Shown one piece after another: positions 15,613 to 27,502 of a DNA stretch of 39,421 nt. Within the stretch, counting starts at the first letter, position 1. Every line of letters starts with the position of its first letter. Both the position numbers and the translations under genes were made by a program. A model generated the notes under the pieces. The model ran no database searches, was not told the DNA's origin, and saw nothing but the letters and a program-made list of their open reading frames with translations. Location of the stretch: NCBI RefSeq assembly GCF_900162685.1, contig NZ_LT727828.1, positions 1,596,041 to 1,635,461 on the forward strand, read 5' to 3'. The DNA is from Terribacillus halophilus (GTDB taxonomy: Bacteria > Bacillota > Bacilli > Bacillales > Amphibacillaceae).

Positions 15613-17522
15613 CCGTTCACCTTGTTTCTGTTCTGTCTTAGTTCAAGGCCTTGCTGCATCCCTTTTGCAGCAGCTAGCGCATTTTTCAATGTCTGTTTTT
15701 CTGGCTTGTCCAGCTCTTTTACAGAAATTTGGGTTGTTAATGGTTCACCAGCATCCAACTGCTGCAGGTTAAGCTTAAGGCGGAAGAGCAGCAGTTCATG
15801 CAATGCTTGGATGGCCGTTTCACTATCACGTTTAGACATTTGGTTGTTGTCTAAAAGGGAGCGAAGGCGCCGAACGGTATGAACGTTTTCAATACCATAT
15901 CCGACTGCATAAATGCGCACGGCATTAACAATTTGCATCATAGCTGACTGTTTTAAGTTCAGATGCTTGTCCTTTGAACTAGTAGAGATACGGCCAAATG
16001 CTTGCAAAGGTACACGTATCTGAAGTGTGTCGCGAATCAGCATTGGCTGCAGTTTTGGTGCGTGCTGCATAGCATGTGTAAGTTTTTCCCGCAGCTTGTG
16101 AGCAAGATCAAAATCTCCATACACAGGGCGGAAATCAATAAATATAGTGAAATCTCTTACTTCTTGTGCATCCAAATTCCGCAGCCATTGATCAATGGTA
16201 TGAGACCATTGGGACAGAGAATGCCGCCATTTCTTTTCCTTTGCCATAATGCCGCCAGTACAGAGCGGGAAACCGCAGGCGTCGAGCTTAGTATTTATCT
16301 TTTCTGTCAATCTTTCGAAGTAGGTTTCTATTTCTTCTTTATAATTCAATTCATCATAGTCCGCAAGAATAATCCCGTTATCTTGATCTGTGCTGAATCC
16401 CTGTTCTTTCCTGCCTTCACTTCCCATTACGATAAAGCAGTAATTGATCTTTGGCCTGCCGTATCCCTCATGTACCATTTCCCGTTCTGACAGTTCGATA
16501 ATCTGCCTATGCATTCGATCATTGTAGCTTGAAATCAGTTCTACAATGTCATAGCCATACATTCGCTCGTCAATCAGCTGCTGGATGAACAACTGAAATT
16601 GTTTGTTGTGCACCGGACTGAGACTTGCCAGCGTTTCAATTGAATCAGCATTGGCAATTCTGTAAGTGAGCTCAAAGTAAACGCTGTTCGACACACTAAG
16701 GAAAGAGGACTGCCGGATAAAACCGACCGCTCTGCTTCCGTGGAGCACAGGTATGACAGCCGCCGGGTGATGCTTAAGGAAGGAAAGGGCATCATAAATA
16801 AAATCATGCTCCTGCACAAAATAGTAATCTTTGTTCATAATCTGCTCGGCAGGTGCATCTAATCTGCCGGCTTTTAATGCATCAAATATTTGCCGGTACC
16901 CAATCATGCCTTCGATATCCTGTTTATTGGCACTGACCGCTACGCCTTCTGTTTCAGCAGTTTGCAGCAGTTCGGCGGCTGCATAAACGGATTCATCGGG
17001 ATGAATGAATGTTGGCCGCTCCATGAAACTGGATACGCGCTTTTTATAAAGAGCCGGTTCGGTTTGGTCGGATAGGTCACTTGTTTTGTATTTAACCTCT
17101 TCATACAAGCTTTTCATCATCTGACTGACACGTTCGAGAATCGCTTGAGAAAACTGTACATTTTGCTGCATAGCCTGCTGGAAAGAAGCTTTCGGGAAAA
17201 CAATGGATTTCGCTTTCTCTGCCGCTTGCACAGCGATTTGCATATCGCCATTTGCTACTAACGTTAATAAGCCGGCGAAATCTCCGGGATAGTCGTAACG
17301 AACAGCGACTTGCTTTCCGTTCGCTTGATAAATGATATCTTTTGCAACACCTGAGACAAAATAATGCACATGCGCATTTTCCTCGTTTTCTTCGGCTGAG
17401 ACAATATACTCGTTTTCCAAGAATTCCTCGATTTCTGCTTGTTCGAACAGCGCATTGCGCTCTTTGTCGTTCAGCAGGGAGAACGGCATTGTTTTTTCAT
17501 ATAAATTGGTTAATTGTGTCAT
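15609..17522 (-). CDS. cNMP-like / CBS pair / DUF294 nucleotidyltransferase signal protein
   Basis: A 637-residue multidomain cytoplasmic protein. Residues 12-135 resemble a CRP-type cyclic-nucleotide-binding domain, but the phosphate cassette PGDFAGLLTLVANG..QIAVQA lacks the usual Glu and Arg. A CBS-domain pair covers about 165-275. The DUF294 nucleotidyltransferase domain (about 290-430) has the polymerase-beta motif GSEGR (367-371) and TDQD (378-381) with both metal-binding Asp. DUF294_C covers about 450-610. The N-terminal layout resembles GlnD-linked signal proteins. Start ATG 17522 has AAGGAG about 10 nt upstream. It forms an operon with the exonuclease and is divergent from the bkd cluster across 100 bp. 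Nucleotidylylation of a protein or nucleotide synthesis are both possible; no target is known from sequence. Confidence 0.88.
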   Translation of the reverse strand: MTQLTNLYEKTMPFSLLNDKERNALFEQAEIEEFLENEYIVSAEENEENAHVHYFVSGVAKDIIYQANGKQVAVRYDYPGDFAGLLTLVANGDMQIAVQAAEKAKSIVFPKASFQQAMQQNVQFSQAILERVSQMMKSLYEEVKYKTSDLSDQTEPALYKKRVSSFMERPTFIHPDESVYAAAELLQTAETEGVAVSANKQDIEGMIGYRQIFDALKAGRLDAPAEQIMNKDYYFVQEHDFIYDALSFLKHHPAAVIPVLHGSRAVGFIRQSSFLSVSNSVYFELTYRIANADSIETLASLSPVHNKQFQLFIQQLIDERMYGYDIVELISSYNDRMHRQIIELSEREMVHEGYGRPKINYCFIVMGSEGRKEQGFSTDQDNGIILADYDELNYKEEIETYFERLTEKINTKLDACGFPLCTGGIMAKEKKWRHSLSQWSHTIDQWLRNLDAQEVRDFTIFIDFRPVYGDFDLAHKLREKLTHAMQHAPKLQPMLIRDTLQIRVPLQAFGRISTSSKDKHLNLKQSAMMQIVNAVRIYAVGYGIENVHTVRRLRSLLDNNQMSKRDSETAIQALHELLLFRLKLNLQQLDAGEPLTTQISVKELDKPEKQTLKNALAAAKGMQQGLELRQNRNKVNG

Positions 17523-17594
17523 CGTAAAGTCGCTCCTTGCATGTCAAAGATCTTATTATTGCTAATTTCTGCAGACTAGTATACCCTATAAGTG

Positions 17595-17608
17595 TGCAAA
17601 ACTTTGCA
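17595..17608. promoter_or_regulatory. Inverted repeat operator candidate upstream of the BkdR-like gene
   Basis: TGCAAA-AC-TTTGCA is a perfect 6-2-6 palindrome lying 14 nt before the start codon at 17623 and directly after CCTATAAG, a possible -10. The right half contains TTTGCA, like the -12 part of a sigma-54 promoter, but the -24 position reads TGTGCA rather than TGGCAC. It may be an operator for the adjacent regulator or a decayed sigma-54 site. Confidence 0.45.
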
Positions 17609-17622
17609 GGATGTGATCAAAA

Positions 17623-19641
17623 ATGAAAAACCTACTCATTATCGGTGCTGGCGATGAGGCTGTCTTATTTATTAAGCAGTTGCAGCGAATTAAGGAATTT
17701 CGCATCGCTGGGATGCTAGTTAAAAGCCCGAGTGCCATCGTAAAATACCAAGCAGAACGACTGGATATCCCGCTTTGGAAAGATGTGACCGCTGAATCAT
17801 TAGAGCAGGTCGATTTTGTGCTGGAAGTCTCAGGCGAATTAACAGATTTCCTTAATCCTTCGCTCTGTAAGGCAGAGATTATATCCAGACAAAGTGCACA
17901 AATGATGCTTGCATTCGCATCACCAGAAGATACAGAAAAGACTTCTACATATAATAGCCAGCAATTTCGCAGTAAAACGCTGGAATACTTGCATGAGGGG
18001 ATCCTGTGCATGAATCGCCAGGATGAAATTATGTATTTGAACGAAGCAGCAGAGAAGCTGCTTGGCAGCTGCAAACACCAAGTAATCGGGAAACCCATAA
18101 ATACCGTACTACCCGGTTCCAGACTATCTGAAACCATTCGAAAAAGGGAACGTTTTACAGATGAACAATTAAAACTCCCGAATGGGGAGGATGTCGTGTA
18201 CACATGTGCGCCGATTGAAGATGACCAAGAGCGTGTGACTGGCGCATTTGCAGTATTGAAAAAGACGATTGATATAGTGGCGCTGGCAGAAGAGCTAACG
18301 GATGTCCGTGAAGTAAAATCGATGCTGGCAGCAATCATCGATTCGTCACAGGAAGCAATCAGTGTTGTTGACGAAAACGGTATTGGCTTGATTGTTAATC
18401 CTGCTTACACACGCTTGACCGGCTATGAAGCAGACCAGATTGTCGGGAAGCCGGCGATAACGGATATTATGGAAGGAGAAAGCCTGCATATGCAGGTGCT
18501 GCGTACACGCAGACCAGCGACAGGAGCTCGTATGCGAGTCGGGAAGCACGGCAAAGAAATGATGGTTAATGCTGCTCCTATCATCGTTGACGGGAAGCTT
18601 CGCGGCAGTGTCGGTGTGCTGCATGATATATCCGAACTGCATGAACTCCAGGATGAGGTACAGCGCGCTCGGAAGATAATCCGCAGTCTGGAAAATAAGT
18701 ATACGTTAAAAGATGTGATCGCTGACTCTGGTACGATGCAAGTAACGCTTGAACAAGTGAAATTTGCAGTTCATGCAGATGCGCCGTGTCTTTTACGCGG
18801 AGACGCAGGTGTTGGAAAAGGGATGTTTGCTGCAATTATTCATAATGAAAGTAAACGGCGACATCACCCATTTATCCGTGTTGATTGTGCAGCAAATGAT
18901 GAGGAAACATTAGAAAATCAATTGTTTGGTTCTGTTCGCCAGCAGCGTGCTGGTAGTTTAATCGAAAAAAGTAATGGAGGCACCTTGTTTTTGGATGATG
19001 TAGACTTCTTGCCGGTTCGTTTACAGGAGAAGCTTTCAGACTTCATGACAACGGGGAAGCTTCTGCTTCATGCTGGTAAATCAAAACAGATGGATGTGCG
19101 AATAGTTGTCAGCGCGCGTCACCCGCTGGAACGGGCTGTTTTTGAAAAACGATTTCATGAACCCTTATTTGAAAAGCTAAAGCGAATTACGATTTATATC
19201 CCAGACTTAACGGCGCGTCTGGATGATTTTGAAGGGTTATTATCCACAATTATCCACAAGCAAAGGCAGCTCCTGCAAACATCTGTTCAATCCATTTCTG
19301 AATCGTCAATTGATGTATTGAAAGCAAAGAAATGGACCCATAATGTAAAAGAGCTGGAAACAGCTATTGCTCAGGCTATGACTTTTATGGAGAAACATGA
19401 GCGTGTTGTGCAGCCAAAGCATATACAGCAGCAGAGCGCCGATTCTGCACTTTCTGCTTCAAATGGGACGCTGCAGGAGCAAGTGGAGCTGTTGGAAAAA
19501 CAGCTGATAGAAGCTGCTTTACAAGCCAATGATTACAATAAGAAAGCGGCAGCAGATCAGCTTGGTGTATCAATCCGTAACCTTTACTATAAAATGGATA
19601 AGTATAATTTTGATAGAAGTGGCATGCAAGATTTTTCATAA
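17623..19641 (+). CDS. bkdR: BkdR-like regulator with eroded sigma-54 activation domain
   Basis: A 672-residue regulator. Residues 1-100 are a Rossmann-like N-terminus (NLLIIGAGDEAVLF). Two PAS domains follow (about 115-215 and 235-340), then an AAA+ domain (355-590) and a Fis-type helix-turn-helix (620-662, KKAAADQLGVSIRNLYYKMD). Architecture and position before ptb match B. subtilis BkdR, the SigL-dependent activator of the bkd operon. The AAA+ part is unusual. Walker A is GDAGVGKG (393-400) and Walker B FLDDVD, but between LFG (434-436) and GGTLFLDD only 15 residues occur and no GAFTGA. The arginine-finger segment reads FHEPLFEKLK instead of FREDLYYRL, and GNVREL reads HNVKEL. Sigma-54 activation is therefore doubtful; a TyrR-like sigma-A role is an alternative. 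Start ATG 17623 follows GGATGTGA. It is 18 nt from ptb, likely one operon. Confidence 0.85.
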   Translation: MKNLLIIGAGDEAVLFIKQLQRIKEFRIAGMLVKSPSAIVKYQAERLDIPLWKDVTAESLEQVDFVLEVSGELTDFLNPSLCKAEIISRQSAQMMLAFASPEDTEKTSTYNSQQFRSKTLEYLHEGILCMNRQDEIMYLNEAAEKLLGSCKHQVIGKPINTVLPGSRLSETIRKRERFTDEQLKLPNGEDVVYTCAPIEDDQERVTGAFAVLKKTIDIVALAEELTDVREVKSMLAAIIDSSQEAISVVDENGIGLIVNPAYTRLTGYEADQIVGKPAITDIMEGESLHMQVLRTRRPATGARMRVGKHGKEMMVNAAPIIVDGKLRGSVGVLHDISELHELQDEVQRARKIIRSLENKYTLKDVIADSGTMQVTLEQVKFAVHADAPCLLRGDAGVGKGMFAAIIHNESKRRHHPFIRVDCAANDEETLENQLFGSVRQQRAGSLIEKSNGGTLFLDDVDFLPVRLQEKLSDFMTTGKLLLHAGKSKQMDVRIVVSARHPLERAVFEKRFHEPLFEKLKRITIYIPDLTARLDDFEGLLSTIIHKQRQLLQTSVQSISESSIDVLKAKKWTHNVKELETAIAQAMTFMEKHERVVQPKHIQQQSADSALSASNGTLQEQVELLEKQLIEAALQANDYNKKAAADQLGVSIRNLYYKMDKYNFDRSGMQDFS

Positions 19642-19659
19642 CGGGGAAGGAAGAATACG

Positions 19660-20562
19660 ATGCATAAGTTTACCGCTCTTGAAAAAATGTCTGCTGCCAA
19701 GCAAGGGTGCACTATTGCCATTGCAGCAGCAGATGATCCGTCCATTGTGCAAGCTGTAAAGAAAGTAACCGATCAGCAGATGGCGTCCTTTTTATTATAT
19801 GGAGATATTGATCGGCTGAAGCAGTTCATGCAAGAAGAACAGCTTGGAGAGGAAAGTGTAAACTGCGTCCATGCCGAAACAGCAGACAGGGCAGCAGACA
19901 TGGCGATTGAATCCTGGAAGACAGGGAAAGCAGATTTGCTGATGAAAGGGATCGTTAGTACAGATGTACTAGCAGGCAAGCTTTTAAAAGACAAATCTAT
20001 GTTAAAACCAGGTCATCTCTTATCGCAGCTGGCAATTTTCGATATACCATCTTATCATAAGCTCCTTTTTTTGACGGATGCGGGCATTAATATTGCGCCG
20101 TCATTGGAGATGAAAAAGAAGATACTTGCAAATGCTGTCAATGTTTATACGCAAATGCTGCACCAAGAACCGAAAGTAGCTGCACTTGCCGCAACCGAAA
20201 AAGTGAATCCGGTAATGCCTGCTACGACAGATGCTGCGCTGCTTCGCGTCATGCAGGAGCGGGGCCAGCTGGCTGCTTGTGAGCTTGATGGTCCGATTGC
20301 ATTGGATAGTGCGCTGTCGGCACAATCTGCTGCTATCAAGAAGATTGATTCACCTGTCGCAGGAGATGTGGATATTCTATTGGTTCCGGACATTGAAAGC
20401 GGCAATATGTTATATAAATCATTTACCTATGCAGCGGGAGCGGTGAGTGCTTCACTGCTCGTTGGTACCAAAGCACCAGTCATTCTCACATCACGTGCTG
20501 ATGACAGTACAAGTAAATATTATGCAATATGCTTCGCCATTGCGGCAGCATCAGTTGCTTAG
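19660..20562 (+). CDS. ptb: Phosphate butyryltransferase
   Basis: A 300-residue member of the phosphate acetyl/butyryltransferase family. It exchanges the CoA of (branched) butyryl-CoA for phosphate, linking branched-chain acyl-CoA from the BKD complex to acyl phosphate. Recognised stretches are [46 protein letters not shown] and [24 protein letters not shown] sequence near the C-terminus. ATG 19660 follows GGGAAGGAAG. It lies 18 nt after the regulator gene and 11 nt before bcd. The gap before it is too short for an own sigma-54 promoter. Confidence 0.93.
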
Positions 20563-20573
20563 GAGGAAGAAAC

Positions 20574-21668
20574 ATGAAAATCTTCGAAACTTTAGAACAA
20601 TATGATTACGAACAGCTTGTCCTTTGCCAGGACAAAGAATCTGGCTTGAAAGCGATTATTGCTATTCACGATACAACATTAGGACCAGCACTAGGCGGCA
20701 CGAGAATGTGGACATATGCTTCGGAAGAGGATGCCATTGTCGATGCGCTTCGTTTGGCAAAAGGCATGACGTATAAAAATGCAGCGGCTGGACTGAATCT
20801 TGGCGGCGGTAAAACAGTTATTATCGGTGATCCGAAAAAAGATAAAAACGAAGCAATGTTCCGCGCATTTGGACGTTACGTACAATCTTTAAATGGCCGT
20901 TATATTACAGCAGAGGACGTAGGAACAACGGTAGAAGATATGGAACTAATTCATACAGAAACTGATTTTGTTACAGGAATTTCTGCCGAATCCGGTTCAT
21001 CGGGAAATCCTTCTCCTGTCACAGCTTATGGTGTGTACAAAGGAATTAAAGCAAGTGCGAAGGAAGCATTTGGAGATGACAGTTTGGAAGGCAAGACAAT
21101 TGCTGTACAAGGTATTGGGAACGTTGCTTATGCTTTATGTGAACACCTTCATGCGGAAGGCGCCAAACTGATTGTAACGGATATTAACAAGGAAGCTGTT
21201 CAGAAAGCGGTGGAAGCATTCGGTGCAACTGCAGTTGATCCAGAAGAGATTTACAGCGTCGATTGTGATATCTTCGCTCCATGTGCACTTGGTGCAGTTA
21301 TCAATGATGACACATTGCGTGTTTTAAAAGCGAAAGTAATTGCTGGAGCAGCTAATAACCAGCTGAAAGAAGAACAGCACGGACAGATCTTGTACGAACG
21401 CGGCATTGTTTATGCGCCAGACTACGTAATCAACTCAGGCGGTGTTATTAACGTAGAGGACGAATTGCATGGCTACAATCGCGAACGCGCGCTTCGTAAA
21501 GTAGAAACAATTTATGACAGCTTGCAGCGCGTGTTCGAAATTGCGAAACGCGACAACATCCCGACAAGTATTGCAGCAGATCGAATGGCCGAAGAAAGAA
21601 TTGAAACAATGCGCCGATCCAGAAGCCAATTTTTGCGTAACGGCCACCATACATTAAGCAGAAGATAA
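20574..21668 (+). CDS. bcd: Leucine / branched-chain amino acid dehydrogenase
   Basis: A 364-residue NAD-dependent amino-acid dehydrogenase, the length of B. subtilis Bcd. It deaminates leucine, valine and isoleucine to 2-keto acids for the BKD complex. The catalytic domain has LGGTRMW and [15 protein letters not shown] with catalytic K80. The Rossmann domain has [16 protein letters not shown]-terminal [11 protein letters not shown] is conserved. The start is ATG 20574 with AGGAGGAAGAA upstream; the in-frame extension to 20529 overlaps ptb and lacks homology. Confidence 0.96.
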
Positions 21669-21686
21669 TATCGAGGGGGAAACCGC

Positions 21687-22769
21687 GTGCATACTGTTGA
21701 AAACCGTATTTTAGCGATAAATCCAGGTTCTACTTCCACTAAAATTGGTGTGTTTGATGATGAGCATAACATTTTTGAACGAGTTATCCGGCATGATTTG
21801 GAAGATATCGGCGGATACGCAAAAGTAATGGATCAATATCCTTTTCGGAAACAAATCATCTTGGATGCATTGGATTTTGAAGGCATCAATGTTTCCAAGC
21901 TAACTGCAGTCTGTGCACGCGGCGGACTGCTCAGACCGCTTGAAGGCGGGACTTATCAAGTAAATGAAGCGATGCTTGCTGACCTAAAGGCAGGTTATAA
22001 TGGCGAGCATGCCTCCAATCTTGGCGGACTGATTGCTTATGAGATTGCCAGCAGTCTCGGAATTCCAGCATTCATTACCGATCCCGTTGTTGTGGATGAA
22101 TTGGATCCGCTGGCGCGTCTATCTGGTTTACCAGGTGTGGAACGGAAAAGCATCTTTCACGCGTTGAACCATAAGGCGATTGCCCGTAAAGCTGCTGCAG
22201 CGAAAGAGAAGCCATACGAGGAAGCGAATATAATCGTTGTTCATCTCGGAGGCGGTATTACCGTTGGCGCTCATCGGCAAGGATTTGTAATTGATGTGAA
22301 TAATGGTTTGAATGGAGAAGGTCCGTACACACCGGAAAGAGCGGGAACCGTACCAGCTGGTGATTTAATCGAACTGGCATTAAGCGGCGAATACACAAAG
22401 GATCAGCTGATGCGTATGCTGACGACAAAAGGCGGGTTCATGGGTTATCTCGGAACAAATGATGGACGGCTTGTCGCCGATAGAATTAAGAAAGGCGACG
22501 AAAAGGCAAAGTTCATTTTCGAAGGGATGATTTATCAGACTGCCAAAGAAATTGGTGCGATGAGTGTCGTTCTGACAGGTGAGGTAGATGCGATAGCCAT
22601 CACCGGCGGACTGGCACATGATGAATTGTTCATCTCCATGCTGAAAGACAGGGTAAGCTGGATAGCGGACGTGCTTGTATATCCAGGTGAAAATGAGCTT
22701 CGTGCCCTGACAGAAGGTGCGCTTCGCGTTATGCGGAAAGAAGAAGCGGCGAAAGTTTATGCCGTATAG
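21687..22769 (+). CDS. buk: Butyrate kinase
   Basis: A 360-residue acetate/butyrate kinase-family enzyme that makes (branched) butyrate and ATP from the acyl phosphate produced by Ptb. ASKHA-type motifs are [16 protein letters not shown] at the N-terminus, the central [18 protein letters not shown], and [13 protein letters not shown]. It uses GTG at 21687, with GAGGGGGA 6 nt upstream. Genes bcd, buk and lpdV are closely spaced, so buk is internal to the operon. Confidence 0.95.
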
Positions 22770-22781
22770 GAGGCAATAACA

Positions 22782-24203
22782 ATGGTTAGAGAATACGACA
22801 TTGTCATCTTAGGAGGCGGTACGGGCGGTTACGTTGCCGCCATCCGTGCTTCCCAGCTAGGATTGAAAACGGCAATTGTAGAAAAAGCAGAACTTGGCGG
22901 AACGTGCTTGCACCGCGGATGCATTCCATCAAAGGCATTGCTGCGGTCGGCAGAAGTTTACCGGCAAACAAAGGAAGCGGCAGCTTTCGGTATACATACA
23001 ACAGATGTGCGCCTTGATTTTGAAGGGGTACAAAAGCGAAAAACAGCAATCATTGACCAGCTGCACCGCGGTGTGCAGCATTTAATGAAAAAAGGAAAGA
23101 TTGATGTATTTCAAGGATTGGGCCGTATTTTAGGACCATCTATCTTTTCTCCGACAGCAGGAACAATATCAGTTGAATTTGCTGATGCTAGTGAAAATGA
23201 AATATTGCTGCCGAAGAACGTCATCGTAGCAACCGGTTCTTCTCCGCGTTCACTTCCGGGAATCGAATTTGATGAAAACAGAATTCTAAGCTCAGAGGGT
23301 GCTTTGGCGCTAACAGAGCTGCCGGAAACAATGACAATTATTGGCGGCGGTGTGATTGGGATTGAGTGGGCGTCCATGCTTCAGGATCTTGGTACAAAAG
23401 TGACGGTGCTTGAATATCAAGATCGTATTCTTCCGACAGAAGATGAACAAATCAGCAAAGAAATGGAAAAACAGCTCAAAAAACGCGGCATTACTATCCA
23501 TACAAATGTGCAAGTAGAAAGCAGTACTGCGGATGACAGCAAGGTAACGGTAACAGCGCAGATGGATGGAGAAAAACAAGAATTTGTTTCTGATAAAATT
23601 CTCCTATCTGTCGGGCGTGCTGCTAATGTAGCAGATATTGGCTTGAAAAATACGGAGATCCAGCTCACAGAGCAAGGTTATATCGCCACAAATGCATACT
23701 ATCAAACAAACGAATCCCACATTTATGCAATTGGTGATGTAATCGGCGGCATGCAGCTCGCGCATGTTGCGTCACGTGAAGGCATCGTGGCAGTCGAGCA
23801 TATTGCAGGCGTGCAAACAGAAGAATTGGACTACAGTGCTGTGCCCGCTTGTGTATACAGCTACCCGGAAACAGCCAGTGTCGGGATGACAGAAGCCCAA
23901 GCGAAGGCAGAAGGCTACACTGTTAAAACAGGTAAAATGAGCTTCCAGGCGATTGGTAAAGCGCTAGTTTACGGAGAAACAGAAGGATTCGTCAAAGTAA
24001 TTGCTGATGAAAAGACAAATGACTTACTAGGCGTTCATATGATTGGTCCGCATGTGACAGATATGATTTCTGAAGCAGGGCTTGCGAAGCTGCTTGACGC
24101 TACTCCGTGGGAAATTGGACAATCCATCCACCCGCATCCGACTTTATCGGAAATTATCGGGGAAGCTGCTTTAGCAGTTGATGGAGAGCAAATACATGGC
24201 TGA
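22782..24203 (+). CDS. lpdV: Dihydrolipoyl dehydrogenase, E3 of the branched-chain keto acid dehydrogenase
   Basis: A 473-residue FAD/NAD disulfide oxidoreductase. The FAD Rossmann motif is ILGGGTGGYVAA (9-20), redox disulfide C42/C47 in GGTCLHRGCIPSKAL, NAD motif IIGGGVIGIEWASML, and the dimer-interface His/Glu in HPHPTLSEIIGE. It reoxidises the lipoyl group of BkdB. ATG 22782 follows GGAGGCAATAAC. The 3' end is 25 nt before the bkdAA start. Confidence 0.95.
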   Translation: MVREYDIVILGGGTGGYVAAIRASQLGLKTAIVEKAELGGTCLHRGCIPSKALLRSAEVYRQTKEAAAFGIHTTDVRLDFEGVQKRKTAIIDQLHRGVQHLMKKGKIDVFQGLGRILGPSIFSPTAGTISVEFADASENEILLPKNVIVATGSSPRSLPGIEFDENRILSSEGALALTELPETMTIIGGGVIGIEWASMLQDLGTKVTVLEYQDRILPTEDEQISKEMEKQLKKRGITIHTNVQVESSTADDSKVTVTAQMDGEKQEFVSDKILLSVGRAANVADIGLKNTEIQLTEQGYIATNAYYQTNESHIYAIGDVIGGMQLAHVASREGIVAVEHIAGVQTEELDYSAVPACVYSYPETASVGMTEAQAKAEGYTVKTGKMSFQAIGKALVYGETEGFVKVIADEKTNDLLGVHMIGPHVTDMISEAGLAKLLDATPWEIGQSIHPHPTLSEIIGEAALAVDGEQIHG

Positions 24204-24228
24204 GACAATGAAGAAAGGGGGAGCGGCG

Positions 24229-25221
24229 ATGTCAGAATCAAGACATGCTTCTCTTGGAATATCAGATGAAAAAGTAGTAGAAATGTATAGGTGGATGCTT
24301 TTGGCTAGAAGAGTTGATGAACGGATGTGGTTATTGAATCGCGCTGGTAAAATTCCGTTTGTTGTATCTTGTCAAGGGCAAGAAGCAGCGCAGGTTGGCG
24401 CTGCGATGGCATTAGATAAGGATATTGATTATTTGCTGCCTTATTATCGTGATTTAGGCATGGTGCTTCCATTCGGGATGACAGCAAAGGATTTAATGCT
24501 GTCTGCATTCGCTAAAGCGGAAGATCCAAACTCTGGCGCAAGACAAATGCCGGGACACTTTGGCAAGAAGTCTTCCCGAATTGTTACTGGTTCTTCTCCT
24601 GTAACAACACAAGTTCCGCATGCAGTTGGCTTCGCGCTTGCAGCTAAAATGGAGAAAAAACAGCTTGTCAGCTTTGTAACACTTGGAGAAGGTTCTTCTA
24701 ACCAGGGTGATTTTCATGAAGGTTTGAATTTTGCTGGTGTTCATAAATTGCCAGTAATAACAATGGTCGAAAACAATAAATATGCCATCAGTATACCGCA
24801 GGAAAGACAGCTCGGCTGTGTTAATGTATCTGACCGCGCGCAAGGCTATGGTATGCCTGGTTTCACAGTTGATGGGAATGATCCGCTAGCTGTTTATCAA
24901 ACGGTAAAAGAAGCGCGGGAGCGTGCGCTGAATGGGGAAGGACCGACGCTAATCGAGACAGTGTCTTACCGCCTAACACCGCACTCCAGTGATGATGATG
25001 ATATGACCTACCGAGAAAAGAAAGAAGTCGAAGAAGCGCGCAAAAAAGACGGCGTGCTGACATTCGCTGCTTACCTTCGAGAAGCAGGTGTGCTCACAGA
25101 GGAAGCAGAAAAACAATTAGAAGAAGAAATCAAGCAAATCGTAGATGAAGCAACAGACTATGCTGAGCATGCTGAAGACCCGGAACCGGAATCCGCATTG
25201 CTTCATGTGTATGCCGATTAA
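24229..25221 (+). CDS. bkdAA: Branched-chain 2-oxoacid dehydrogenase E1 alpha
   Basis: A 330-residue thiamine-diphosphate enzyme subunit, identical in length to B. subtilis BkdAA. It decarboxylates branched 2-keto acids together with BkdAB. The TPP/Mg motif is LGEGSSNQGDFHEGLN (about 152-167) ending VENNKYAIS; GEG in place of GDG is the usual variant here. The phosphorylation-loop equivalent YRLTPHSSDDDD is present. Start ATG 24229 follows AAAGGGGGAG. ATG 24195, overlapping lpdV, is an in-frame alternative but adds unrelated residues. Confidence 0.95.
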   Translation: MSESRHASLGISDEKVVEMYRWMLLARRVDERMWLLNRAGKIPFVVSCQGQEAAQVGAAMALDKDIDYLLPYYRDLGMVLPFGMTAKDLMLSAFAKAEDPNSGARQMPGHFGKKSSRIVTGSSPVTTQVPHAVGFALAAKMEKKQLVSFVTLGEGSSNQGDFHEGLNFAGVHKLPVITMVENNKYAISIPQERQLGCVNVSDRAQGYGMPGFTVDGNDPLAVYQTVKEARERALNGEGPTLIETVSYRLTPHSSDDDDMTYREKKEVEEARKKDGVLTFAAYLREAGVLTEEAEKQLEEEIKQIVDEATDYAEHAEDPEPESALLHVYAD

Positions 25222-25233
25222 GGAGGAAAAACA

Positions 25234-26217
25234 ATGCCAGTAATGTCTTATATCCAAGCGATCACGCAAGCAATGCGTGAAGAAATGGAAGCAGATGAAA
25301 AAGTATTTGTATTAGGAGAAGACGTCGGAAAGCGGGGCGGCGTATTCCGTGCTACCGATGGATTGTATGATCAATTCGGGGAGGAGCGTACACTGGATGC
25401 ACCGCTCGCTGAATCAGCCATCGCTGGTGTAGCAATCGGGGCGGCTATGTACGGTTTGAAGCCGATTGCGGAAATGCAATTCGCTGATTTTATTATGCCA
25501 GCAGTAAACCAGATTGTCTCGGAAGCAGCTAAAATCCGCTATCGTTCCAATAATGACTGGACTTGCCCGGTAACCATTCGTGCTCCATATGGCGGTGGTG
25601 TACACGGCGCGTTGTATCATTCGCAATCTGTAGAGGCGGTATTTGCCAACCAGCCAGGCTTGAAAATAGTTATGCCTTCTACACCTTATGATGCAAAAGG
25701 ACTTCTAAAAGCAGCAATCCAAGATCCCGATCCGGTCTTGTTCTTTGAACATAAACGAGCTTACCGCCTCATTAAAGGGGAGGTACCAGCAGAATCCTAC
25801 ACGCTGCCGATTGGAAAAGCAGACGTAAAGCGGGAAGGTTCTGATATTACGGTCATCACCTACGGATTATGTGTTCATTTTGCACTGCAGGCAGCTGAAA
25901 AACTAGCAGCTGAAGGCATTGAAGCGCATATTCTTGATTTGCGGACCGTTTATCCACTTGATAAAGAAGCGATTATTGAGGCTGCTTCTAAAACAGGAAA
26001 AGTGTTGCTAATCACAGAGGATAATAAAGAAGGCTCCATTATTGGAGAAGTTGCAGCAATTATCGGTGAAAATTGCCTCTTCGACTTGGATGCACCGATT
26101 CAGCGATTAGCTGCACCAGACGTACCTGCTATGCCATATGCGCCTAGTACGGAAAAATACTTCATGGTTAATCCTGCCAAAGTGGAAGCTAGCATGCGAG
26201 AACTAGCGGAATATTAA
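25234..26217 (+). CDS. bkdAB: Branched-chain 2-oxoacid dehydrogenase E1 beta
   Basis: A 327-residue transketolase-like E1 beta subunit. It has VFVLGEDVGKRGGVFRAT, AESAIAGVAIGAAMYGLKPI, EMQFADFIMPAVNQI and the GGGVHGALYHSQSVEA loop, plus the transketolase C-terminal domain with DLRTVYPLDKE. Start ATG 25234 with AAGGAGG upstream, 12 nt after bkdAA. It forms the E1 heterotetramer with BkdAA. Confidence 0.96.
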   Translation: MPVMSYIQAITQAMREEMEADEKVFVLGEDVGKRGGVFRATDGLYDQFGEERTLDAPLAESAIAGVAIGAAMYGLKPIAEMQFADFIMPAVNQIVSEAAKIRYRSNNDWTCPVTIRAPYGGGVHGALYHSQSVEAVFANQPGLKIVMPSTPYDAKGLLKAAIQDPDPVLFFEHKRAYRLIKGEVPAESYTLPIGKADVKREGSDITVITYGLCVHFALQAAEKLAAEGIEAHILDLRTVYPLDKEAIIEAASKTGKVLLITEDNKEGSIIGEVAAIIGENCLFDLDAPIQRLAAPDVPAMPYAPSTEKYFMVNPAKVEASMRELAEY

Positions 26218-26230
26218 ACGAGGTGTAATG

Positions 26231-27502
26231 ATGACGATAGAAAAGATATTGATGCCAAAGCTTGGCGAGAGTGTAACAGAAGGCACGATCAGCACATGGC
26301 TCGTCCAACCTGGTGACAAAGTCAGTAAATACGATGCCATTGCAGAAGTGATGACCGACAAAGTGAACGCGGAGATTCCCAGCTCTTACACAGGTGTCAT
26401 CAAAGAATTAACAGTAGCAGAAGGTGACACCGTTGAAGTAGGAGCACTCATTTGTTCAATCGAGACAGAGGATGCAGGAGAGGCACCGAAACAAGAAACT
26501 GATTCTGTTGCCTCTGGCAGCGCTGCTCCTGCTGAGTCAGAAAAGCAAACGACTGGAGAAACAGCGATGAAAGCAAGGTATTCACCTGCTGTTATGCGGC
26601 TCGCACAAGAACATGACTTGGATCTCTCCGCTATAAACGGCAGCGGAAAAGGCGGCCGCATCACGAGAAAAGACGTGGAAGCAATTATTGCCTCCGGTGA
26701 GAAACCGCAAGCACAAACGAAATCACAGCCAGAAACGCAAACTGCTGCACCGGCAGCCGCAGAACAGCAAGCAGCACCAGCGCCAATGAGAGAAGCAGCT
26801 GCTTCAGGTGCGGCAATTCCAGTTACAGGTGTGCGCAAAGCAATTGCTAACAACATGGTAAAAGCTGCGACAGAAATACCGCATGCATGGATGATGGTAG
26901 AAGTAGACGTGACGGAATTGGTTAAATATCGAAACAAAGTAAAAGATGCGTTTAAAGCAAAAGAAGGTTATTCGCTTACGTTCTTCTCCTTCTTCGTCAA
27001 AGCAGTTGCACAAGCGTTAAAAGAATTCCCGCAGCTGAATAGTTCTTGGGCAGGAGATAAGATTATTCAGCATGATGAAGTGAACATTTCTATTGCTGTA
27101 GCAAAAGAGCAAGAGTTGTTCGTTCCGGTCATTCAATCAGCAGATGATTTAAGTGTAAAAGGGATAGCGAAACAGATTACTTCTCTTGCAGGAAAAGCAC
27201 GAAATGGCAAGCTGACAGCAGCTGACATGCAGGGCGGTACATTTACCGTTAATAATACAGGCTCCTTCGGTTCTGTACAAAGCATGGGAATTATTAATCA
27301 TCCGCAAGCTGCCATTCTGCAAGTAGAATCAATCGTAAAACGTCCGGTAATTATCAATGATATGTTTGCAGCGCGCGATATGGTGAATTTATGTTTGAGT
27401 CTTGATCACCGCGTGTTGGACGGACTTGTTTGCGGTCAATTTATGGCAAGAGTGAAAGAGATTCTCGAGAACATATCTGAATCTACTATGCCTGTCTATT
27501 AA
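26231..27502 (+). CDS. bkdB: Branched-chain 2-oxoacid dehydrogenase E2 (dihydrolipoyl acyltransferase)
   Basis: A 423-residue E2 core. The lipoyl domain (1-80) has lipoylation K44 in MTDKVNAEIP. Ala/Pro/Gln-rich linkers flank a peripheral-subunit-binding domain (about 115-155, YSPAVMRLAQEH...GRITRKDV). The acyltransferase domain (about 195-423) has catalytic H393 and D397 in DHRVLDG. Two adjacent ATG codons exist (26228, 26231); the second is preferred because the GAGGTG site then has 5 nt spacing. It is the last gene of the bkd operon; 73 nt separate it from brxB. Confidence 0.95.
   Translation: MTIEKILMPKLGESVTEGTISTWLVQPGDKVSKYDAIAEVMTDKVNAEIPSSYTGVIKELTVAEGDTVEVGALICSIETEDAGEAPKQETDSVASGSAAPAESEKQTTGETAMKARYSPAVMRLAQEHDLDLSAINGSGKGGRITRKDVEAIIASGEKPQAQTKSQPETQTAAPAAAEQQAAPAPMREAAASGAAIPVTGVRKAIANNMVKAATEIPHAWMMVEVDVTELVKYRNKVKDAFKAKEGYSLTFFSFFVKAVAQALKEFPQLNSSWAGDKIIQHDEVNISIAVAKEQELFVPVIQSADDLSVKGIAKQITSLAGKARNGKLTAADMQGGTFTVNNTGSFGSVQSMGIINHPQAAILQVESIVKRPVIINDMFAARDMVNLCLSLDHRVLDGLVCGQFMARVKEILENISESTMPVY

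Follow-up and report, generated by a model that had tools for sequence, protein, structure and literature searches.

The regulation of the bkd genes in Bacillus subtilis was reportedly described by Debarbouille in 1999, with BkdR as a sigma-54 activator. In this study, we considered a stretch of 39,421 nucleotides from Terribacillus halophilus (assembly GCF_900162685.1, contig NZ_LT727828.1; hereafter the window), in which the gene heading the bkd operon encodes a BkdR-like protein devoid of the GAFTGA loop. This raises the question of which promoter such a protein may serve, and in what manner.

The bkdR gene and its AAA+ domain

The open reading frame at 17623-19641 (Table 1) is a BkdR orthologue heading the bkd operon. 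The orthology is taken because all 105 relatives of the family (159 genomes were searched, and the 105 that matched BkdR at E 1e-60 or below were all examined) immediately precede ptb (61) or bcd (44); in these 44 genomes, bcd and not ptb is the first operon-like gene. The names ptb-bcd-buk-lpd-bkdAA-bkdAB-bkdB for the genes that follow in the window are presumptive and follow the operon order of B. subtilis. The six named relatives of the reading frame at 80-95% identity comprise five from Terribacillus and one filed as Virgibacillus sp. The protein displays the BkdR order of domains, namely a Rossmann-like N-domain, PAS1, PAS2, a degenerate AAA+ domain and a Fis-type HTH, and the Pfam search detected two PAS domains, HTH_8 and PF00158 (Sigma54_activat), the last at 113.7 bits (cut-off 20.2) versus 230.8 bits in a typical BkdR of the family. 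No other protein in the assembly of the window matches PF00158 strongly, three further matches being weak (22-38 bits). The Rossmann-like N-domain showed weak DapB_N and CoA_binding matches in the canonical protein.

Table 1. Features of the bkdR region, in positions of the window
Feature	Position	Strand	Remarks
Box 1, TGCTAATTTCTGCA	17560..17573	+	overlaps the putative -35 TTGCTA (17559-17564); placed by the aligned footprint
Putative -10, TACCCT	17582..17587	+	17 bp after TTGCTA; placed by the aligned footprint
Alternative -10, TATAAG	17587..17592	+	candidate
Box 2, TGCAAAACTTTGCA	17595..17608	+	just downstream of the -10, near the start codon
bkdR	17623..19641	+	672 aa, ATG start; ORF list and domain profile search
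Rossmann-like N-terminal domain	17623..17937	+	aa 1-105; poorly conserved in Terribacillus
PAS2	18304..18657	+	aa 228-345; profile search
Walker A, GDAGVGKG	18799..18822	+	aa 393-400; kept, Lys included
Site of the lost L1/GAFTGA loop	18931..18975	+	aa 437-451; 15 residues between LFG and GGTLFLDD
Walker B, TLFLDD	18982..18999	+	aa 454-459; Asp in place of the catalytic Glu
Former arginine-finger segment, FHEPLFEKLK	19153..19182	+	aa 511-520; canonical FREDLYYRL
Degenerate sensor II, HNVKEL	19339..19356	+	aa 573-578; canonical GNVREL
Fis-type HTH	19483..19605	+	aa 621-661; profile search
Gap between bkdR and ptb	19642..19659	+	18 nt; without the UAS boxes and the -24/-12 promoter usual in relatives
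bkd operon: ptb, bcd, buk, lpd, bkdAA, bkdAB, bkdB	19660..27502	+	ORF list

The initial annotation of this locus had described the shortened LFG-GGTLFLDD spacing without GAFTGA, and this was seen again in both the reading frame and the alignment, while the changes that it had pointed out at the arginine finger and at GNVREL were recovered by comparison with canonical members. Its further statement that both Walker motifs are kept stood for Walker A and only by half for Walker B, which has lost its catalytic Glu; the gap before ptb, which it had given as free of a -24/-12 element, proved too short to hold one. In addition, sensor I, which reads ATN in canonical BkdR, has become SAR in the protein of the window. 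The survey of the genus for GAFTGA loss, which the same annotation had proposed, found the motif missing in all ten Terribacillus genomes. In each of these the first finger Arg is replaced by His or Tyr and the catalytic Glu of Walker B by Asp, and the second finger Arg has become Lys in five and is still Arg in the other five. A displaced functional L1 loop, for which a check by alignment had been suggested, was detected neither in the family alignment nor in an AlphaFold model of the protein (mean pLDDT 73, pTM 0.36); with moderate confidence, the model places a coil at residues 436-445, where the L1 helix-loop would be expected. The Foldseek search mostly retrieved AAA+ structures of known EBPs, including VpsR, and offered no clue to the ligand. 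In our reading, the AAA+ domain no longer remodels sigma-54 and would serve as a scaffold that probably binds ATP and oligomerises, without hydrolysing ATP.

Loop, promoter and rpoN among the relatives

Among the 105 family members, 71 keep GAF[TS]GA (the DAFSGA of G150 being scored as intact) and 34 do not. The gap that follows bkdR contains a -24/-12 element, called at a score of at least 13 of 15, in 67 of the 71 loop-intact members versus none of the 34 loop-less ones, and Terribacillus showed none before ptb in all ten genomes. Two of the loop-less members (L109 and L124, from G010 and G026) have only 28-32% identity and were left out of the trees; excluding both here too makes the count 0 of 32. 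Of the 34 loop-less members, 24 have 15-76 nt between bkdR and the next gene, versus 64-277 nt in the loop-intact ones. The same association was noticed in the other families of the order, where the element accompanies all 82 BkdRs with GAF[TS]GA versus none of the 11 without it, GAFEGA and GAFVGA being scored here as lost. With a threshold of E 1e-150, 94 of the 110 genomes sampled from the order gave a match. Two of these 94 are Terribacillus; the other 92, from outside the genus, supplied all 93 matches of the set used, G214 having two. Overall, 45 of the 198 BkdRs are loop-less.

A FastTree tree of 193 rows, computed with the loop columns removed and without three of the order-set matches, requires at least nine changes of loop state, or seven when seven rows on long branches are not counted, and since so many changes are needed, the coupled loss of loop and promoter appears to have recurred. 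In eight independent pairs differing in the loop, the promoter followed the loop in 7-8 and never ran opposite to it (sign test, p 0.008-0.016), the promoter state of the order-level rows having been entered from the association found in 90 order-set BkdRs. The family-only tree (103 rows), which came from a short search and warns of long branches meeting, gave at least six loop changes and four independent pairs, too few for significance. Both trees were midpoint-rooted for drawing only, so the counts cannot separate gain from loss, and several loop-less rows lie on long branches and are of unsure placement. Four loop-intact family genomes without a -24/-12 element (G149, G150, G018 and G023) look like intermediates in which the promoter is gone and the loop still present, and in g34 and g35 the loop is gone with the motor residues intact. 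Together with Terribacillus, where loop and motor are both eroded, these look like a graded series, which from the loop-less BkdRs with an intact motor would lead to a pseudo-ATPase in Terribacillus.

Concerning the sigma factor itself, the genome check for an intact sigL/rpoN that the initial annotation had put forward turned out as it anticipated. The assembly of the window (3.45 Mb in 13 contigs, estimated to be 100% complete) gave no match to PF04552 (Sigma54_DBD) or to TIGR02395, and with these two profiles the idea of a missed rpoN was rejected for the assemblies searched. In the genus, rpoN is absent from six of the ten genomes, one of these a single contig, and present in four. Across the family, rpoN is retained in 19 of the 34 loop-less genomes, the four Terribacillus among them, so loss of rpoN is not required for loss of the loop. 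As a general cause it was discarded on these figures and on those of the other families of the order, where 5 of the 11 genomes with a loop-less BkdR have rpoN. In the four rpoN-bearing Terribacillus (L016-L019; G005, G006, G008 and G009), rpoN lies close to an EBP with an intact GAFTGA, which from its size and place would be LevR-like, and rpoN may have been kept, or regained, for this regulator only. One member of the family (L103, in G146) has an intact loop and a perfect -24/-12 element, and no rpoN was found in its assembly, which is 99% complete in 150 contigs; rpoN either fell into a gap of this assembly or was lost recently.

The boxes before bkdR and the control they suggest

Directly before bkdR, we observed a rigid footprint of 50 bp, in which two TGC-N7-TGCA boxes flank a promoter of the sigma-A type. 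It consists of TTGCNAAANNNTGCA as box 1, which includes a -35-like TTGCYA, then TANNNT 17 bp further on, and TGCA-N6-TGCA as box 2. A score of at least 17 of 22 was reached in 92 of the 105 upstream regions of the family (63 of 71 loop-intact and 29 of 34 loop-less), versus a top score of 16 in the control of 20 mononucleotide shuffles per region. All ten Terribacillus score 20-21, one of them with an altered base in box 2. The footprint is missing from 13 of the 105, five loop-less ones among them, and occurs at the same score in at least 21 of 90 BkdRs of the other families, a lower bound, as start codons were estimated there. Autoregulation therefore does not apply to every loop-less BkdR. 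Searched across the genome, the pattern of paired boxes matched once, at bkdR, and a reversed control pattern also matched once, so the weight of the footprint rests on its conservation and not on its rarity.

The same box is found in the gap between bkdR and ptb or bcd in loop-intact species, mostly 56-59 and 74-77 nt before the TGG of the -24 element, and of the 66 gaps in which a -24/-12 element had been called, 55 hold at least one box (one further element was found later with the full gap). This is the place where the UAS of a sigma-54 promoter is expected. As a control, 28 of the 54 family genomes lacking a BkdR match at E 1e-60 were considered, 20 of which also lack a bcd match; in the remaining eight, neither boxes nor a -24/-12 element occurred in the 1500 nt upstream of bcd. 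CodY and cre sites were considered as a new means of regulating the operon and set aside, since the CodY-like sites in 17401-20700 all had at least four mismatches and one cre-like pattern had no match in 17001-20700. In most of 25 loop-intact gaps inspected, such as those of L024-L062, a cre-like site resembling AAGCGCTTTCA was noticed between the boxes and the -24 element.

We consider it fairly probable (roughly 0.7) that in Terribacillus the sigma-54 promoter was lost, that the operon became an extension of the sigma-A promoter of bkdR, and that BkdR is the regulator of this promoter, probably as a repressor. This reading draws on features read directly from the sequences, namely the lost loop, first finger and promoter, the conserved boxes, PAS2 and HTH, and the undetected rpoN. 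The ancestral BkdR, as typical relatives still appear to do, would have used one and the same box for two jobs, in that it activated the sigma-54 promoter and also controlled the sigma-A promoter of its own gene. Once the UAS and the promoter between bkdR and ptb had disappeared, ptb to bkdB would be read from the bkdR promoter, and the autoregulatory job alone would remain. More specifically, and only as a tentative proposal that we would put at somewhat less than even odds, BkdR was a sigma-54 activator at ptb or bcd and an autorepressor at its own promoter, so that loss of the promoter fused the operon to the latter and inverted the logic of control. A metabolite would be sensed through the PAS domains, PAS2 above all, and this ligand would relieve the repression. 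Repression is favored as the most probable mode of control because BkdR, if it binds these boxes and if transcription starts where the aligned footprint would place it, would cover the start region from box 2 and the -35 from box 1. The step from activator to repressor is likely. The initial annotation had proposed a sigma-A regulator or a repressor of the TyrR kind; its shift to sigma-A is supported by the joint loss of loop and -24/-12 element together with the footprint on the bkdR promoter.

The weak -10 of Terribacillus would in fact fit an activator, which argues against repression. At the conserved spacing the genus shows poor hexamers (TACCCT, TACGCT, TAAGCT, TAGTCT) in all ten genomes, while its relatives mostly show TATGAT, and a generic sigma-70 scan called no site at the footprint, so an activator-dependent or a shifted promoter is possible. 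BkdR might then be a conventional sigma-A activator, like NtrC of Rhodobacter capsulatus, that recruits or stabilizes RNA polymerase from box 1, and ATP binding without hydrolysis may help. In line with this, Walker A is kept, and GAFTGA-less NtrC proteins activate sigma-70 promoters, as stated in the portion of PMC10274813 covered. Nevertheless, box 2 just past the -10 and box 1 over the -35 favor occlusion, and we regard an activator as unlikely.

Another reading would have the operon constitutive or under CodY or CcpA alone and BkdR a decaying remnant. The Terribacillus branch is indeed very long (5.1 changes per column versus a median end branch of 0.15), and the mean identity of Terribacillus to the 69 canonical members is low in the AAA+ domain (0.36, versus 0.78 among canonical members between genera), PAS1 (0.29 versus 0.61) and the N-domain (0.23 versus 0.54). 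It is higher in HTH (0.49 versus 0.61) and highest of the five domains in PAS2 (0.62 versus 0.80). Of the near-invariant canonical residues, all ten Terribacillus keep 49 of 62 in PAS2, 13 of 15 in HTH (counted over aa 618-664) and 54 of 139 in AAA+, and the recognition-helix residues SIRNLYYK are also found in canonical BkdRs of the family. Pairwise dN/dS within the genus, taken from seven pairs with one AAA+ value not computable and some dS saturated, was 0-0.03 in PAS2, 0.01-0.09 in HTH and 0.06-0.09 in AAA+, and rose to 0.09-0.24 in PAS1 and 0.09-0.38 in the N-domain, its upper value coming from one pair. Against decay stand the low values in the first three of these domains, the reading frame open in all ten genomes and the footprint kept in all ten; likewise, the CodY and cre scans speak against control by CodY or CcpA. 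Since the whole genus sample shares the change, with open frames and dN/dS well below 1, sequencing error and a pseudogene were also ruled out. Evidently, bkdR is under selection, but not for sigma-54 remodelling, and a mere remnant seems to us quite improbable.

It would be more improbable still that some other regulator uses the upstream boxes and that BkdR acts elsewhere; the 13 members without the footprint would agree with this, but the box is also found with mostly constant spacing ahead of the -24, at the expected place of a UAS, and is lacking upstream of bcd in the eight genomes without a BkdR match. That BkdR continues to activate with sigma-54 through a displaced loop, rpoN having escaped the assembly, is hardly credible: four of the ten Terribacillus do have rpoN, but six lack it, one of them in a single contig, the loop is in neither alignment nor model, none has the -24/-12 element before ptb, and the rpoN-bearing ones have the separate loop-intact LevR-like EBP near rpoN.

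Relation to known regulators

In domain order and in its position at the head of the bkd operon, the Terribacillus protein resembles the BkdRs of B. subtilis and B. thuringiensis; for the latter, the portion of PMC4428206 covered presents BkdR and sigma-54 control of bkd as demonstrated, with two PAS domains in the regulator. Unlike both, Terribacillus is without GAFTGA, the first arginine finger, the -24/-12 element and a detected sigL. In the part of Francke et al. 2011 (PMC3162934) covered, the Thr-to-Ser change in the GAFTGA of B. subtilis BkdR is placed among those of validated activators, and TyrR, DhaR, HupR, VpsR and YplP are given as EBP relatives with a defective GAFTGA, of which TyrR, DhaR and HupR were shown to be sigma-70 dependent. 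The covered portion of PMC10274813 adds NtrC of Caulobacter and of R. capsulatus as further loop-less cases. From these two sources, as far as covered, GAFTGA-less relatives reported to act with sigma-70 include TyrR and DhaR of Escherichia coli, HupR and NtrC of R. capsulatus, and likewise VpsR of Vibrio cholerae and NtrC of Caulobacter. They differ from Terribacillus BkdR in family and pathway, and in the latter the motor residues are eroded too; its target, moreover, would be a promoter that once served autoregulation and now extends into a catabolic operon. YplP of B. subtilis, an EBP relative from Bacillus whose GAFTGA carries a deletion according to the same part of PMC3162934, differs by its other regulon (cold shock).

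A precedent for repression of the own promoter is offered by the sarcosine regulator SoxR of B. thuringiensis HD73, an EBP which, in the portion of PMC4941409 covered, negatively regulates its own non-sigma-54 promoter; it is a PAS-containing EBP as well (PMC4428206, in the portion covered), and unlike Terribacillus BkdR it still activates sigma-54 promoters according to these portions. BkdR did not appear in the portion covered of PMC6615313, which surveys sigma-54 regulons in Clostridiales, and our literature search, which took in titles and abstract openings with most subscription papers outside its scope, returned no report of a loop-less BkdR.

Single EBP relatives that left sigma-54, such as TyrR, DhaR and VpsR, are thus already known. 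What is new is that one orthologous regulator in one conserved operon changes repeatedly, with apparent intermediate stages, and because of this recurrence the order of events and the role of an AAA+ domain without sigma-54 become directly testable. If our reading is true, one regulator was turned from a remodelling activator into a repressor, with its control logic inverted. With 45 of 198 members loop-less, calling BkdR homologues sigma-54-dependent from their domains alone would mislead. Two of the Terribacillus without rpoN (L015 in G004 and L020 in G007) also harbor EBP-like frames of 588-594 aa with Walker A and no GAFTGA, which are possibly further sigma-54-free relatives.
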